From Planctomycetota bacterium (lineage in GTDB: Bacteria > Planctomycetota > GCA-002687715 > DRQF01): a stretch of DNA of 12,359 nucleotides. The notes under the pieces are model-generated. The model was not told the origin of the DNA. It saw nothing but the letters and a program-made list of their open reading frames with translations, and did no database searches. A program made the translations under genes and the position numbers. The DNA lies in contig WFTN01000451.1 in the NCBI GenBank assembly GCA_015485455.1, positions 1-12,359 on the forward strand, given 5' to 3'. How positions within the stretch are numbered: the first letter of the stretch is position 1; each line of letters opens with the position of its first letter. Shown one piece after another: positions 1,704 to 6,595 of this stretch.

Positions 1704-1733
1704 GGTGCCATGAACAAAGATTTTGGAGCCCCC

Positions 1734-2651
1734 ATGCCCCCTTTGATCCCCGTTTCTGTCTTGTCTGGTTTCTTGGGCGCCGGCAAGACGACCTTCCTGA
1801 ACCAAGTTCTCCGGGGCGATCATGGCAAGAAAATTGCCGTTTTGGTCAATGAAATTGGCGCGATTGGTGTGGACGGCGCCTTGCTCGATACAGATGAAAG
1901 TTTCGTCACCTTAGACAATGGGTGCATTTGTTGTTCTCTCAACGAAGATCTTCCCATTACTTTGGCGGAAATGTCCAAGATCGGCGATATCGATCATGTG
2001 GTGATTGAGACAACGGGGGTGGCAGATCCACTGCCCGTGGGATTCGCCGTCGATATGCCGGAAACCAAAGATCTTTTTTCTCTGGATGCTCTCATTAGCA
2101 TCGTCGATTGCAGCGCCTTTCTGGATGTCGTTGATGTCCATGAAGAAGTGAGGGCGCAAGTTGCCCACTGTGACCTTGTGATTCTCAGCAAATGCGATCT
2201 GGTGGATGCTGCCAGGATCGAAGAAGTGAACAACCGAGTTGCTGCTTTGAACGGGAAGGTTCGCATCCTGCGTTCAGACGAAGCCGATTGTGTTTCCTTA
2301 GCTCTTGACCTGAGAGTTGAAGAACGTCATGTTGAGCAGAAATCTCGGGTAATTTCTTCTGCCCATGCTAAAGGCTTTGATGCTTTGAGTTTTGATATTG
2401 GTGGACGGAGTACGATCAGATTTGCCTTCGAGGAATTTTTAGAATATCTGCCGAAAGAAGTGATTCGCGCCAAGGGTATTGTGCCTCTGGATGGAGAAAG
2501 AGGGCGACTCATCTTTCATCGCGTCGGTGAACGACTCGACATCTCTTTTGAAAGTGATCGCAGTGATGATGGTAGGATTGTGCTCATCGGTAAGAATCTT
2601 GATCGAGATGCCCTCATGAACGAACTTGAAGAACTCTTTGAGGTGGCTTAG
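1734..2651 (+). CDS. CobW/G3E-family (COG0523) metal-handling GTPase
   Basis: This is a 305-residue protein from the ATG at 1734. An in-frame ATG at 1710 would add eight residues, but 1734 has GGAG at 1725-1728 and starts where family members normally start. The N-terminal cobW GTPase domain has Walker A GFLGAGKTT (12-20), the family's metal-binding CxCC motif as GCICC (C64, C66, C67), the switch/Walker B-side ETTG (92-95) and the base-recognition motif SKCD (152-155). A CobW_C domain follows at about 213-303. There is no His-rich insertion. Known family role: GTP-driven delivery of Zn, Co, Ni or similar metals to client enzymes or cofactor pathways. The ureohydrolase that follows without a gap is a binuclear metalloenzyme, which suggests that it is the client (inference). 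The metal and true substrate are not determined by sequence. No cobalamin genes are nearby, so a CobW role in B12 synthesis is unsupported. Confidence 0.9.
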   Translation: MPPLIPVSVLSGFLGAGKTTFLNQVLRGDHGKKIAVLVNEIGAIGVDGALLDTDESFVTLDNGCICCSLNEDLPITLAEMSKIGDIDHVVIETTGVADPLPVGFAVDMPETKDLFSLDALISIVDCSAFLDVVDVHEEVRAQVAHCDLVILSKCDLVDAARIEEVNNRVAALNGKVRILRSDEADCVSLALDLRVEERHVEQKSRVISSAHAKGFDALSFDIGGRSTIRFAFEEFLEYLPKEVIRAKGIVPLDGERGRLIFHRVGERLDISFESDRSDDGRIVLIGKNLDRDALMNELEELFEVA

Positions 2652-3692
2652 ATGAAAGAACCCCATATTGGGTCGCGGAGCTTTGATCCCTCTGCACCGG
2701 CAGATCCAGACGCTGGAATTTTCGGTACGTCAACATCGGCTTCAGAGAGTCTTGTCCATTTGATTCCTGTTCCTTTTGAAGCTACGACCTCCTATGGGCG
2801 GGGGACTAGCCTTGGGCCCCAAGCGATTCTGAGGGCAAGCCATCAACCGGACCTCTTCGACTTAGAATGTGGCAGGCCCTATGAAGTCGGCATTCATTTG
2901 TTGACGGAATCGAGTGAGATTCGGGCCCTCAACAAGGAAGCACTCAAGGCTGTGGAGGTCGCTCAGGGCAAAGGTGTCAATGCGGATTCGGCTCTTACAG
3001 AAGTGAATCTGGCTGGGGAAAAAGTAAACAAATACGTCCGGTCTTTGGCCAAACAAACTCTGGATGATGGCAAGCTGGTTGGTCTCATTGGTGGTGATCA
3101 CGCCTCACCTTTTGGTTTGATTGAAGAGCTTTCTTTGCGCCATCCAGGTATGGGGATCTTGCATTTAGATGCTCACCATGACTTGCGAGAGTCATACGAT
3201 GGCTTCACTTGGTCCCACGCTTCCATCATGTTCAATGTTATGACTCAACTCGATGGTGTCCAGAAGTTAGTGCAAGTGGGCATCCGTGATTTCTGCGAAG
3301 AAGAAAAAGCCATGGCCGATGAATCGGATGGTGTCATTGTGGCTTTCTACGATCAAGACATCGCTCGATCTAGATTCAGGGGAGAGCCCTGGGGACAATT
3401 GGCTCAGAGTATCGTGGATGAGCTACCCCAAGAAGTCTACATCTCATTCGATGTCGATGGCCTCGACCCGAAACTCTGCCCCAATACAGGAACCCCTGTG
3501 CCAGGTGGGCTGGATTTCAACGAGGCGATTTTCCTTCTATCCTTGGTGCAAGAAAGCGGTCGCAGAATTATCGGTTTTGATCTTTGCGAGGTTGCGCCAG
3601 GCCGAGACGAATGGGATGCCAATGTCGGAGCCCGGCTGCTCTATAAGTTGATCGCCTATATGATTCAGACTTCCCCTCAGCCTCATCCATAA
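2652..3692 (+). CDS. Ureohydrolase (agmatinase/arginase superfamily)
   Basis: A 346-residue enzyme with every binuclear metal motif of the family: GGDH (H150), DAHHD (D173, H175, D177) and SFDVDGLDP (D267, D269). EVAPG lies at 313-317 and NTGTPVPGG at 278-286. Such enzymes hydrolyse a guanidino group and release urea, usually with two Mn ions and in some relatives Ni. SHAS (188-191) and GTPVPGG look more agmatinase-like than arginase-like, but agmatine, guanidinobutyrate, other guanidines and formiminoglutamate cannot be separated by eye. The N-terminus has about 30 extra polar residues before the conserved core (HLIPVPFEATTSYGRG), and residues 104-130 also look like an insertion. Its ATG directly follows the TAG of the GTPase gene; GAGG at 2640-2643 provides the ribosome site. 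The pair is surely one transcript. Confidence 0.88.
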   Translation: MKEPHIGSRSFDPSAPADPDAGIFGTSTSASESLVHLIPVPFEATTSYGRGTSLGPQAILRASHQPDLFDLECGRPYEVGIHLLTESSEIRALNKEALKAVEVAQGKGVNADSALTEVNLAGEKVNKYVRSLAKQTLDDGKLVGLIGGDHASPFGLIEELSLRHPGMGILHLDAHHDLRESYDGFTWSHASIMFNVMTQLDGVQKLVQVGIRDFCEEEKAMADESDGVIVAFYDQDIARSRFRGEPWGQLAQSIVDELPQEVYISFDVDGLDPKLCPNTGTPVPGGLDFNEAIFLLSLVQESGRRIIGFDLCEVAPGRDEWDANVGARLLYKLIAYMIQTSPQPHP

Positions 3693-3725: not shown

Positions 3726-3755
3726 ATGGTGGTGGACATGTCGATTAACCACCAT
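3726..3755. repeat. Perfect 8-bp inverted repeat at a convergent gene junction
   Basis: ATGGTGGT (3726-3733) and ACCACCAT (3748-3755) form an 8-bp stem with a 14-base loop. It overlaps the stop codon of the minus-strand membrane protein, 34 bases past the ureohydrolase stop. No T-run follows on either strand, so it is not a textbook intrinsic terminator. It may still help separate the two convergent transcripts. Confidence 0.3.
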
Positions 3756-4071
3756 ACCAAGGACCGCTGAACGCCAAGGAGGCGGCAAAGAGGCCGAAAC
3801 ACGTGGCATTCAACAGAAAAATGATGAGTGCTGTGAGTGCCATCCCCTTCATGAAGTCTCTGGACGCTCCTCGGTGACGAGCGATGCCCATGGCCGGAAT
3901 CAAGTAGAATGCCTGGAGTAGGCCGATGAAAAGAATGGCCACGGCTCCTTCGTGGGCAATCACGCCTATGACTCCAATGACCGTTGGAATACCCACCAGG
4001 TGAATGAGCGTGCCGACGAAGATACCTCTTCTGACGTCCACATTGACTTTCTTGTCTTTCGAATCTTCCAT
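3745..4071 (-). CDS. Small three-helix membrane protein, paralogue of upstream gene
   Basis: A 108-residue protein with a charged N-terminus (MEDSKDKKVNVDVRRG) and three predicted membrane segments at about 17-39, 42-64 and 76-99. I do not recognise a named family. It aligns along its length with the 103-residue protein encoded just upstream. The shared core is FY-x-IPA, then DF-x-KGMALT, then NA-x-CFG; over the 39 residues from FY to CFG, 22 are identical. The two are therefore a tandem duplication. It is the last gene of the operon, 45 bases after its paralogue, with AAGGGA about 9 bases before the start. An inner-membrane subunit or partner for the Lgt-like and radical SAM proteins is the obvious guess. 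The central charged loop (ARHRGASRD, 64-72) between helices 2 and 3 could be an interaction site. Confidence 0.75.
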   Translation of the reverse strand: MEDSKDKKVNVDVRRGIFVGTLIHLVGIPTVIGVIGVIAHEGAVAILFIGLLQAFYLIPAMGIARHRGASRDFMKGMALTALIIFLLNATCFGLFAASLAFSGPWYGG

Positions 4072-4116
4072 GATTCTTCTTCCCTTACTTTTTGTGTTCT
4101 TTGTGCGAGAGGTGAA

Positions 4117-4428
4117 TCATCTGCCCATCGATCCAAGTCCCCATATTCCGAAGCAACCAGCATTCATGATGAAAGGGATGGCGCAGGTAAGGGCCATGCC
4201 TTTGATAAAATCGTTTGTTGCTTGTTTTCTCTTCGCGACGATCAGGGCCGGAATGAAGTAGAAGAATTGAGCTACACCAAAAAACAACAGGACGAAAGCG
4301 AGGGCAAGCTCCCCAATGAGAAAGGCCAAGAGAAGCAAGAACAAGACACCAGCCAAATGAGCGCAGAGGCCAGCTAACACGCCTTTTCTGAACTGCCTTT
4401 CAAATTTGTGTTCTGGTGCTTGCTTCAT
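4117..4428 (-). CDS. Small three-helix membrane protein, first of a tandem pair
   Basis: A 103-residue protein with a basic N-terminus (KFERQFRKG, 8-16) and hydrophobic segments at about 16-38, 40-65 and 76-98. The family is not recognised. It shares with the next gene the pattern FY-x-IPA (56-61), a basic loop (AKRKQATND, 65-73), F-x-KGMALT (74-81) and NA-x-CFG (89-94). Its ATG overlaps the stop of the radical SAM gene as ATGA (4425-4428), and no clear Shine-Dalgarno is seen, so translation is probably coupled to that gene. Tight coupling implies a shared process. A single conserved Cys in helix 3 (C92) is present in both copies. Confidence 0.75.
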   Translation of the reverse strand: MKQAPEHKFERQFRKGVLAGLCAHLAGVLFLLLLAFLIGELALAFVLLFFGVAQFFYFIPALIVAKRKQATNDFIKGMALTCAIPFIMNAGCFGIWGLGSMGR

Positions 4429-5849
4429 TTGCCAGCCAACTTCGACTTTCGCCTGAGGGGTTCGAGGACTTCTTTTTCCAATGACCCCCGATAGAAGAGG
4501 TTGTAAGTCTCGAATGGAATAAGCCTAAAGTCTTTGGGGTGTACTATGTGAACACAACTTTTCTTGACGCTGCGAACATCAAAATCATGGGCGTCCATGA
4601 ACTGCATGATGATGACGCGGAACAAGTTGTCATAACCCAGTGACGAAGGCAGGTCCATTTTCGGAAGGCAACAAAGAAGACTCTTCAAACTCGCCATGCT
4701 AGATTTGGGAGAATGGGCAGTTGAGAAAGTGTCGAAGATCTTCTCTTTGAGGTCTTCATCCTTCTCGAATGAAATGGTGTTTCGGCCCCCTTCTATGAGG
4801 ACCTTCGGGTCGATCATCCCGGTGAGAGGAATCAGTTTCTCTTCTTTTTTGATGGCGTAAGCCATGGCCAAGGCGTCCGGGTGACAGGGCACCGGGATAA
4901 TGTCTTCCGGAGCGAATAAGGAAGTTTGCTCCAAGATCTTTCGTCTCACCTCGCTGAGGGTCAAACGATCTGTGGCTTCATTGAAACCGACATTGCGACC
5001 AGCATCTTGAATGGGCTGTAAGGTGACACCGCGGACACAGCTTTGAGCGGCGGCATAGTCAATGATCTTGCCGATCTCAGCGTCGTTTTGTCCCCGGCGC
5101 AGAGTTACTACGAGGGTGGTTGATATGCCCAGGTCGTTGAGTTTTTGAATGGCCCGTTTGCGCACCGATCTTAAGTCGGCGCCCCGAAGACCCATGAGAG
5201 TGTCTTTTTCAAATGAATCGAACTGGAGATAAATCTCGAAGCCTGGCATGTAGCGAGCCAACTTCGTGGCGAACCCATCTTCGTTAGCGATTTTGAGCCC
5301 ATTGGTGTTGAGCATGAGATGTTTGATAGGTCGTTTTTTGGCTTCGCCCAAGATGTCGAAGAATTGTGGATGGAGGGTGGGTTCGCCCCCGGACAATTGG
5401 ACGACATCTGGCTCTCCTTCATTGGCCACCACGGCGTCCAGCATGGCGCACACTTGATCGAATCTGTGAAAGTTTAAGTTCGATGGACCAGAGCTTGCGA
5501 AGCACACGGGGCATTCCAAATTGCAGAAATCACCCAGTTCAATGATTGTCAAACAAGAATGCTGCTCATGGTCCGGACAGAGCCCACAATCGTAGGGACA
5601 ACCATGTTTGATGGGTGTATTGAACTGCATGGGCATCTCTGACGGTTTGATGAAAACTTCCCGGCAACGCCGATAATAGTCGATGTCGTCGGCAATCTTG
5701 ATCCGCTCCAAGCCATGCTCAGGGCAGCGTTTCTCGAGAAATACCCATGCGTCTTGAAACAAGATCTTGCCGTCGACTCGCTTGAGGCAAGTGGAGCAGA
5801 TCGACACGGCGATGTCATAGTATTGATAAGATCGAAGGCGGTTCGTCAT
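4425..5849 (-). CDS. Radical SAM protein, MJ0619/tetraether-lipid-synthase type
   Basis: A 474-residue protein. A zinc-ribbon or rubredoxin-like N-terminus has C18-x2-C21 and KRCPEHG (C42), followed by a cysteine cluster at C84, C88, C91 and C99 (HGCPYDCGLCPDHEQHSC). The radical SAM motif is C109-x3-C113-x2-C116 (CNLECPVCFA), with SGGEP at 153-157. The C-terminal part has C393-C394 and IIMQFMDA (413-420), C432 in the next helix, and IPFETYN (444-450). This architecture is that of the archaeal MJ0619 group, first assigned to pterin methylation and later shown to include the tetraether synthase Tes, which joins lipid chains by C-C bonds and carries extra FeS clusters. From memory the C-terminal motif in relatives is often IPFCxYN; here Glu replaces Cys. 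GGAG lies 7 bases upstream, and the start overlaps the Lgt-like stop by 4 bases. The substrate is unproven; a lipid is favoured by context. Confidence 0.8.
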   Translation of the reverse strand: MTNRLRSYQYYDIAVSICSTCLKRVDGKILFQDAWVFLEKRCPEHGLERIKIADDIDYYRRCREVFIKPSEMPMQFNTPIKHGCPYDCGLCPDHEQHSCLTIIELGDFCNLECPVCFASSGPSNLNFHRFDQVCAMLDAVVANEGEPDVVQLSGGEPTLHPQFFDILGEAKKRPIKHLMLNTNGLKIANEDGFATKLARYMPGFEIYLQFDSFEKDTLMGLRGADLRSVRKRAIQKLNDLGISTTLVVTLRRGQNDAEIGKIIDYAAAQSCVRGVTLQPIQDAGRNVGFNEATDRLTLSEVRRKILEQTSLFAPEDIIPVPCHPDALAMAYAIKKEEKLIPLTGMIDPKVLIEGGRNTISFEKDEDLKEKIFDTFSTAHSPKSSMASLKSLLCCLPKMDLPSSLGYDNLFRVIIMQFMDAHDFDVRSVKKSCVHIVHPKDFRLIPFETYNLFYRGSLEKEVLEPLRRKSKLAGK

Positions 5850-6595
5850 GGGTGTACTCCATTCAATCTGGCAGCACTTACGCGCAGCTTAAGGCCATAG
5901 TGAATCAATCCAAGAAGGCAGGCCCATTGAATTCCTCTGAGGCCAAAGAGAATCTCATAGTCCTTAAGGAAGTCGCAGAGAAAACGAAACCCCAGATAGG
6001 AAAACATGAAGAGGCTGAAGAGCTGTCCCTCAAAGTAGGGGTGATTCTTCCTCTTGTGGATCGCCCATGCCAAGAAGAGCAAGAACAGAATCTCATAGAG
6101 GGGTGTGGGGTGGCGAAAGCCGTCACCGAAGTCGACACCCCATGGAAGTTGGGTGTGAACACCCACTGTGTCGTCCGTCACCCCACTTAAGAAACAACCG
6201 ATCCTGCCGATGGCAATGGCGACACACAGGGGGATGGCAAAAAGATCGCCGGTGGATTGTTTGATGCCGTAGTACTTCTTGACAGCTTCGACACAGAGGA
6301 GCCCTCCCAAGAGACCTCCGACAATGGTCTTACCACCCATGATGAACACAGGGTCGTGCCAATGGGAAGCGAGTCGTGAAGGGGAAGACAAGTGGTGGAG
6401 AAGCTTGGAGCCGATGGCACCGCCGATGGCGGCCGACAAAATGATCGTCCAGCGTGTGGACGGCCGGACGATGTCACCGGCGTTTTTTCTTCCCCATGAG
6501 TAGGTGCGAAAGCCAATGAAGTAGGCCAATGCCTCAAAGACGACATGGGCGTTGAGCGCCAGGGGGCCGAGATAGATCACGACTGGGAAGCTCAT
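5846..6595 (-). CDS. Lgt-like (prolipoprotein diacylglyceryl transferase family) membrane protein, divergent
   Basis: A 249-residue polytopic membrane protein with the Lgt fold signature. It contains GGKTIVGGLLGG (87-98), GRIGCFLSG (130-138), LPWGVDFGDG (150-159), RHPTPLYE (161-168) and FRFLCDF (203-209). Alignment by eye to E. coli Lgt keeps R143 (R131 here) and R239 (R204), with E243 as D208. Essential H103 becomes V92, N146 becomes C134, E151 becomes V139, and Y26 is probably E21. Known Lgt transfers diacylglyceryl from phosphatidylglycerol to the lipobox Cys. With these losses this is likely a paralogue with another reaction or a binding role. It is the first gene of the operon; AGGAG precedes the ATG by 10 bases, and its stop overlaps the radical SAM start (ATGA). 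The housekeeping lgt should be elsewhere, since the window itself encodes a lipoprotein. Confidence 0.83.
   Translation of the reverse strand: MSFPVVIYLGPLALNAHVVFEALAYFIGFRTYSWGRKNAGDIVRPSTRWTIILSAAIGGAIGSKLLHHLSSPSRLASHWHDPVFIMGGKTIVGGLLGGLLCVEAVKKYYGIKQSTGDLFAIPLCVAIAIGRIGCFLSGVTDDTVGVHTQLPWGVDFGDGFRHPTPLYEILFLLFLAWAIHKRKNHPYFEGQLFSLFMFSYLGFRFLCDFLKDYEILFGLRGIQWACLLGLIHYGLKLRVSAARLNGVHP

Follow-up and report, generated by a model that had tools for sequence, protein, structure and literature searches.

An Lgt paralogue and a Tes-like radical SAM protein, linked with cysteine-helix membrane proteins, suggest an undescribed way of modifying membrane proteins

Introduction

What does a relative of the lipoprotein enzyme Lgt do beside a relative of the archaeal tetraether synthase (Tes)? 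The question is raised by a stretch of 12,359 nucleotides (nt) from a Planctomycetota bacterium (assembly GCA_015485455.1, contig WFTN01000451.1), the whole of which is called the window here. Four open reading frames (ORFs) on its minus strand form an operon at 3745-6595 that encodes an Lgt paralogue (LgtL), a radical S-adenosylmethionine (SAM) protein (rSAM) and two membrane proteins (tmA and tmB). LgtL and rSAM are a tightly linked pair and the core of the operon, and most of the proteins that accompany them across phyla carry a cysteine late in a hydrophobic helix. We read the set as a dedicated module for the modification of membrane proteins, in which LgtL would lipidate the helix cysteine and rSAM would modify that lipid or the helix; we infer the chemistry, and we give this reading a probability of roughly 0.45.

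The four same-strand genes and the ATGA overlaps joining three of them, both described in the original prediction, are indeed present, and tmB follows tmA after a gap of 45 nt:

5846..6595, minus strand: LgtL, paralogue in PF01790, 249 amino acids (aa), first gene of the operon
5846..5849, minus strand: ATGA stop/start overlap of LgtL and rSAM
4425..5849, minus strand: rSAM, Tes/TrsS-like, with an N-terminal Cys3His ribbon, 474 aa
4425..4428, minus strand: ATGA stop/start overlap of rSAM and tmA
4117..4428, minus strand: tmA, membrane protein with three hydrophobic helices and Cys92 late in helix 3, 103 aa
4153..4155, minus strand: codon of tmA Cys92 in the motif MNAGCFG, read from the sequence
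3745..4071, minus strand: tmB, paralogue of tmA, with Cys91 late in helix 3, 108 aa
3799..3801, minus strand: codon of tmB Cys91 in the motif LNATCFG, read from the sequence

Results

LgtL and rSAM occur together as neighbours

A scan of one genome per species (84,980 species) identified at least 583 rSAM relatives; the 80 loci with the best matches were kept. By their titles these belong to Planctomycetota, Acidobacteria, Omnitrophota, Elusimicrobia, Myxococcota, Bacilli, cyanobacteria, Bacteroidetes, proteobacteria and Methylacidiphilales and to four archaeal bins, which we take to be marine group II archaea. Among the carriers are Paenibacillus, Flavobacteriaceae, cyanobacteria, Dyella and the archaeal bins. 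In 75 of the 80 loci LgtL precedes rSAM and shares its strand, with at most 150 nt between the two in 66. Eight loci, all titled Acidobacteria or relatives, have a spacing of 279-1107 nt with small membrane-protein ORFs in between, and one locus (L067) has a spacing of 3.2 kb. Among the five loci without LgtL ahead, two (L024 and L043) start near a contig edge, and in the other three (L030, L057 and L076) no LgtL was found near rSAM.

Since these loci had been picked by their similarity to rSAM, three samples not picked in this way were added: the families of Paenibacillus chitinolyticus (locus L034; 104 genomes) and Lacinutrix venerupis (L089; 149 genomes), and Planctomycetota (246 genomes). 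The original prediction had named co-occurrence in other genomes as its check, and co-occurrence was found: in the P. chitinolyticus family rSAM and LgtL are present in the identical 16 genomes and neither is present in the other 88, and in the L. venerupis family they share the identical 20 genomes (Fisher p 4e-19 and 3e-25, respectively, uncorrected for the relatedness of the genomes). All 36 pairs adjoin, the largest gap being 1.3 kb. In Planctomycetota, rSAM was found in 22 genomes and LgtL, at E <=1e-30, in 17 (18 matches). All 14 strong LgtL matches (>=265 bits) adjoin rSAM, and three of the four weak ones stand beside a more distant Tes/TrsS-like radical SAM gene (L116, L117 and, with about 0.8 kb between, L119), the fourth being the match in L118. 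Eight genomes have rSAM and no strong LgtL match: four carry a divergent LgtL directly behind rSAM (L107, L111, L113 and L115, the last in G224), in three (G010, G232 and G080) rSAM starts 266-653 nt from a contig end, which leaves no room for a whole LgtL, and in one (G136, L108) rSAM has no LgtL at the locus.

The trees of the two proteins, built from 87 LgtL-rSAM pairs, correlate (Mantel r 0.80, reached in 0 of 2000 permutations), for which shared descent alone could suffice. No open frame in the 80 loci held both matches as a fusion, and beyond rSAM, LgtL and the small-protein clusters no further cluster of ORFs (>=70 aa) recurred in more than 11 of 75 loci.

In two genomes of the Paenibacillus family (G273 and G292) LgtL consists of two abutting half-length ORFs beside an intact rSAM, which is either a natural split or a frameshift. 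Because of these two, another genome (G347) in which both genes are broken up is weak evidence of joint loss. A tandem pair of Tes/TrsS-like radical SAM genes in G053 (L013 and L014; region L120), a single example that cannot stand for Tes-like clades at large, has no LgtL match in the surrounding 12 kb. Spread on plasmids was considered and rejected: 1 of 72,556 records matched at E <=1e-100, the Persicobacter psychrovividus plasmid pPP1, and no gene is listed there.

Most third partners are membrane proteins that carry a helix cysteine

Neither tmA nor tmB matches a Pfam or NCBIfam family at E 0.001, in keeping with their earlier description as unknown membrane proteins, and the weak matches of the small proteins (DUF4064, zinc ribbon, EF-hand and others) all stay below the cut-offs. 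The two are 38% identical, and tmB matches the tmA family profile with E 1e-26. The family comprises 258 proteins at E 0.001. The best 120 of these matches were aligned together with tmA, which is perhaps counted among the 120; Cys92 is present in 120 of the 121 aligned proteins, a count favoured by a search profile made from cysteine-bearing members. Q54, P60 and N89 (121/121) and Y57 (120/121) are kept as well. The tmA-like profile matched in 14 of the 16 carriers of the Paenibacillus family and in one non-carrier. In Planctomycetota it gave 18 matches spread over 12 genomes; 13 of them adjoin rSAM or LgtL, and of the remaining five, three sit in a carrier but on another, small contig.

In other phyla the same places in the operon are taken by membrane proteins of different kinds, which are otherwise dissimilar. 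Most of them have one feature in common: a hydrophobic helix that comes after a positively charged loop or N-terminus and has a cysteine in its late part. The motif around this cysteine is LLNAACFG in Bacillota and Planctomycetota, LLNGGCW in cyanobacteria, SLGICGS in Bacteroidota, SLGLCG in Acidobacteriota and GLCGG or SLCGG in Betaproteobacteria. The Bacteroidota type (55-70 aa) was found in 19 of the 20 Flavobacteriaceae carriers (not in G485) and weakly in 2 of the 129 other genomes; carriers have one to three copies, and all 28 lie within 0.9 kb behind rSAM. In two sets picked by position and by eye, the helix cysteine is present in 12/12 Bacteroidota proteins and in 18/18 in-frame proteins of the Acidobacteriota/Pseudomonadota first-helix type (19 rows aligned; L028_4002 is the one left out). 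The membrane protein or proteins behind rSAM at the four archaeal loci end in a cysteine helix, for example GFFGCVAIFSAGW; four of the five archaeal proteins have 303-366 aa, and the four loci (L048, L051, L055 and L065) are assigned to archaea as binned.

Among raw ORFs of the 80 loci, some of which are not genes, a cysteine in the outer half of the C-terminal helix was seen in 62 of 77 operon ORFs versus 10 of 51 far ORFs. Over 85 called cysteine helices the last K, R or H precedes the cysteine by a median of 20 residues; 72 of the helices are C-terminal, with a median of 9 residues behind the cysteine. From these charges, the helix is predicted to run from the cytoplasm to the outside and to place its cysteine at the outer face. 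The number of companions varies: one Planctomycetota locus (L106, in G219) has six cysteine-helix proteins behind rSAM, and the distant Planctomycetota loci L116-L118 have arrays of four to eight membrane-protein ORFs beside LgtL, many of which end in a cysteine helix. Some companions have zinc-ribbon-like or EF-hand-like motifs in front (Pfam scores below cut-offs).

These proteins could also be subunits or sensors of an LgtL-rSAM membrane complex whose substrate lies elsewhere, the cysteine then contacting a partner or a cofactor. The confinement of the small proteins to the operon in Flavobacteriaceae carriers, in every copy, and the conserved residues of the three-helix family besides its cysteine would suit such a role. 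However, a copy number of one to six or more, divergent sequences, and the addition of zinc-ribbon-like, EF-hand-like or ectodomain parts while the cysteine helix mostly persists argue against it, and we consider it quite unlikely.

LgtL is a paralogue of Lgt with a partly altered active site

LgtL of the window matches PF01790 with E 2.1e-25 (89.9 bits; cut-off 24.9), and it is homologous to Lgt of Escherichia coli (5azb) over most of its length (profile E 4.2e-30). The earlier assignment as an Lgt paralogue thus holds for homology and not for membership of the lgt equivalog TIGR00544 (cut-off 118.9 bits), which LgtL of the window (31.9 bits) and of L034 (44.1 bits) both miss. The higher-scoring PF01790 protein of the genome (L001) reaches 206.8 bits with TIGR00544. 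Such a second, higher-scoring protein is present in 20 of the 24 genomes tested; the other four are the archaeal bins, where LgtL is the sole PF01790 protein. A further PF01790 paralogue is found in the genome of the window on two contig ends (G000:C609:6089-6604 and G000:C382:14-220) and may be one gene split over them (profile positions 8-179 and 184-238).

All residue counts for LgtL and rSAM refer to the 87 pairs. R143 and R239 of E. coli Lgt, which passages of PMC4728403 propose to bind and activate the donor lipid, correspond to R131 and R204 of LgtL, both kept in 87/87. A counterpart of Y235 is present in 87/87 and an acid at the position of E243 in 86/87. N146, in contrast, is replaced by Cys134 in all 87. 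By its sequence, LgtL is a paralogue of Lgt and not Lgt itself, and its predicted active site is half preserved and half altered.

rSAM is related to Tes but is not Tes

rSAM matches PF04055 (E 1e-20) and PF23545, the HMPTM zinc ribbon (E 3.1e-13). Its best solved relative in a search of 177,635 sequences is the tetraether synthase MJ0619 (7tol/7tom, E 4e-63), which bears out the predicted homology to the MJ0619 group. The Tes cut-off (NF045702, 450 bits), however, is reached neither by the window protein (252 bits) nor by those of L034 (297.8) and L089 (287.8). The top NCBIfam score of the window protein, 290.9 bits, is to the TrsS radical SAM (seleno)protein (NF045646), whose cut-off of 490 bits is also missed, as it is by the proteins of L034, L089, L116 and L117 (326.8-355.2) and L119 (202). 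The archaeal rSAM proteins branch with those of the window and L015 (support 89).

With Tes (GDGT-MAS) rSAM shares the rubredoxin-like Cys3His site, the N-terminal cluster of Cys3 plus His and the CX3CX2C motif of radical SAM proteins; the nine cysteines and H94 among the Tes metal ligands are present in 87/87 and H45 in 83/87, and C432 aligns to a cysteine of MJ0619. In contrast, C99, C322, C393 and C394 are invariant in rSAM (87/87) and MJ0619 has no cysteine at the aligned positions, so that the cluster sites may differ from those of MJ0619. Tyr459 of Tes is replaced in 87/87 (I 80, M 3, V 2, L 1, F 1) and Met439 is kept in 59 and replaced in 28. Both residues are described in passages of PMC9433317 as completely conserved among 1000 archaeal Tes homologues, and Tes variants at both positions retained activity; their replacement therefore concerns membership of the family, not chemistry. 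As judged from sequence, rSAM is a homologue of Tes and not Tes itself, and it differs from Tes also in being tied to LgtL.

The kinship with Tes allows for a pathway acting on free lipids, in which rSAM couples the fatty-acid chains of phospholipids, LgtL moves or changes the head group and the small proteins are structural subunits. The original prediction leaned to such a pathway, as do Zeng et al. for bacterial Tes homologues in general. It is favoured by Tes being the closest solved relative, and bacterial Tes homologues have been put forward, without confirmation in the passages concerned, as makers of branched glycerol dialkyl glycerol tetraethers (brGDGTs) (PMC8941075, PMC11868695). 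Against it stand the scores below the Tes cut-off and, although the Tes variants are active, the replacements of Tyr459 and Met439. The conserved helix cysteine and the divergence of the small proteins would be left unexplained. Moreover, many of the carrier genera are aerobic and, to our knowledge, not known for membrane-spanning lipids. We regard this pathway as unlikely. That most third partners are membrane proteins whose helix cysteine is conserved points instead to a protein-bound product, and the earlier proposal of a chain-linked or headgroup-modified bulk lipid appears weakened on these sequence grounds.

Surroundings of the operon

The source genome bin has 614 contigs and is 77% complete, and the named closest protein relatives of the window are from Planctomycetota. 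A promoter had been predicted in front of the operon, where one site matches at 9 of 12 positions; the region has 4 such sites compared to 2.0 +/- 1.3 in shuffled sequences, which is not clearly above chance, and the promoter was rejected. At 1710-3692 of the window, a gene for a CobW-type GTPase is followed by an arginase-family gene that starts at the base after its stop, and the two are perhaps a metal-loading pair. A protein of the PF06491 'disulphide isomerase' family, presumably of the bacilliredoxin type, is encoded at 1157-1567.

Discussion

How might LgtL, rSAM and the cysteine helix work together? Lgt meets the prolipoprotein with the cysteine at the outer end of a helix that runs from inside to outside. 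Since a relative of Lgt is almost always the neighbour, the simplest reading is that a lipid is attached to the helix cysteine. LgtL would use phosphatidylglycerol as Lgt does, consistent with the several donor-site residues kept, and with its reshaped site would transfer the diacylglyceryl group to the helix cysteine, presumably in the geometry in which Lgt meets the signal peptide of a prolipoprotein. Less surely, rSAM might then act on a chain of the protein-bound lipid, by coupling it to a second chain or by some other change, or its target might be the helix itself. Such a pathway would yield a few dedicated membrane proteins with a lipid modification rather than a bulk membrane lipid.

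Several observations weigh against lipidation of the cysteine by LgtL. The counterpart of Lgt H103 is never a histidine in LgtL (V 74, M 8, I 4, L 1), Y26, which also contacts the donor lipid (PMC4728403), is His17 in 87/87, and R246 is lysine in 86/87; according to the same source, in the passages on mutants, E. coli Lgt variants of Y26, H103 and R246, including R246K, did not complement. With these three positions changed, LgtL may do none of the chemistry of Lgt. Lgt works outside and radical SAM proteins work inside, so that the two could share a substrate only if a lipid tail is within reach. The companions are not uniform either. An automatic rule found a small cysteine-helix ORF next to the pair in 66 of the 80 loci and in 7 of 20 further Planctomycetota regions; inspection added such a companion in L015, L028, L047, L078, L095 and L106, and other loci remain without one. 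The cysteine is missing from the companion in L043, from the first of two in L015 and from several array members in L116-L118, and in L118 a divergent LgtL stands next to an array, while no rSAM match lies within 8.5 kb. Finally, the helix cysteine could be structural.

Many radical SAM proteins modify peptides that are encoded next to them. The changed LgtL residues and the four extra invariant cysteines of rSAM, with possibly different cluster sites, would fit a direct modification of the polypeptide by rSAM, for instance a C-C or C-S link at or near the helix cysteine, with LgtL presenting the helix as a membrane partner that is non-catalytic or has another activity. However, a pure chaperone would not need the invariant R131 and R204, and the cysteine, by charge at the outer face, would be far from a cytoplasmic rSAM; we hold this to be unlikely. 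Very unlikely, in our estimate, is a more specific course in which LgtL diacylglycerylates the helix cysteine and rSAM couples the chain end to that of a lipid of the opposite leaflet, leaving the protein on a membrane-spanning lipid. If true, this would be a protein-bound tetraether-type chemistry that extends over many phyla and into some archaea and that bulk lipid extracts would not reveal.

Lipidation of the helix cysteine by LgtL followed by the action of rSAM, our preferred reading, would, if true, be a route of protein lipidation that involves radical chemistry. Its substrates would be dedicated proteins, many of 55-145 aa, that could be weighed directly by mass spectrometry. The set of LgtL, rSAM and cysteine helix thus hints at a form of membrane-protein modification not described before; in the open papers of PubMed Central, the scope of our search, which leaves out preprints and subscription papers, no description of the LgtL-rSAM pair or of the cysteine-helix tag was found.

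Comparison with known systems

In lipobox prolipoproteins a Gly, Ala or Ser precedes the cysteine, which lies within an N-terminal signal peptide. The cysteine helices described here differ from these in being mostly C-terminal (72/85) and in having A, G or S before the cysteine in only 39/85, the other residues being L (19), I (11), T (6) and others. An invariant cysteine beside a C-terminal membrane helix is shared with the MYXO-CTERM/myxosortase and JDVT-CTERM/MrtJ systems. Unlike in the myxosortase and MrtJ systems, none of the four operon genes encodes a protease (Pfam, NCBIfam). The cysteine of tags of the MYXO-CTERM type is thought, according to passages of PMC11980579, to be lipidated by an Lgt-like enzyme, and modules of two genes, an enzyme plus its target, are reported there. 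In a MYXO-CTERM tag, as these passages describe it, the cysteine motif is followed by the helix and an Arg-rich cytoplasmic end, whereas the cysteine studied here comes late in or after the helix, at the outer face as judged by charge. The helix orientation is thus opposite, and MYXO-CTERM remains the closest idea among known systems.

The comparison with Tes bears on palaeothermometry, since bacterial Tes homologues are offered in passages of PMC8941075 as candidate makers of the branched tetraethers that serve as palaeothermometer lipids. Zeng et al. (PMC8941075), with 456 bacterial homologues in their survey, and Castillo Boukhchtaber et al. (PMC11868695) proposed these as brGDGT makers, in the passages concerned without proof. 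With a match to Tes at E 4e-63 for the window protein, members of the present clade could pass the limit of 1e-50 of Zeng et al., whose single Tes homologue in marine group II bins (28% identity), as given in a passage of that paper, may be a member of the LgtL-linked clade. A large clade of Tes-like proteins belongs to a module of its own, together with an Lgt paralogue and, in most cases, cysteine-helix proteins. An LgtL neighbour is a simple marker that separates this clade from other Tes-like proteins, and its bacterial members should not serve as markers of tetraethers.

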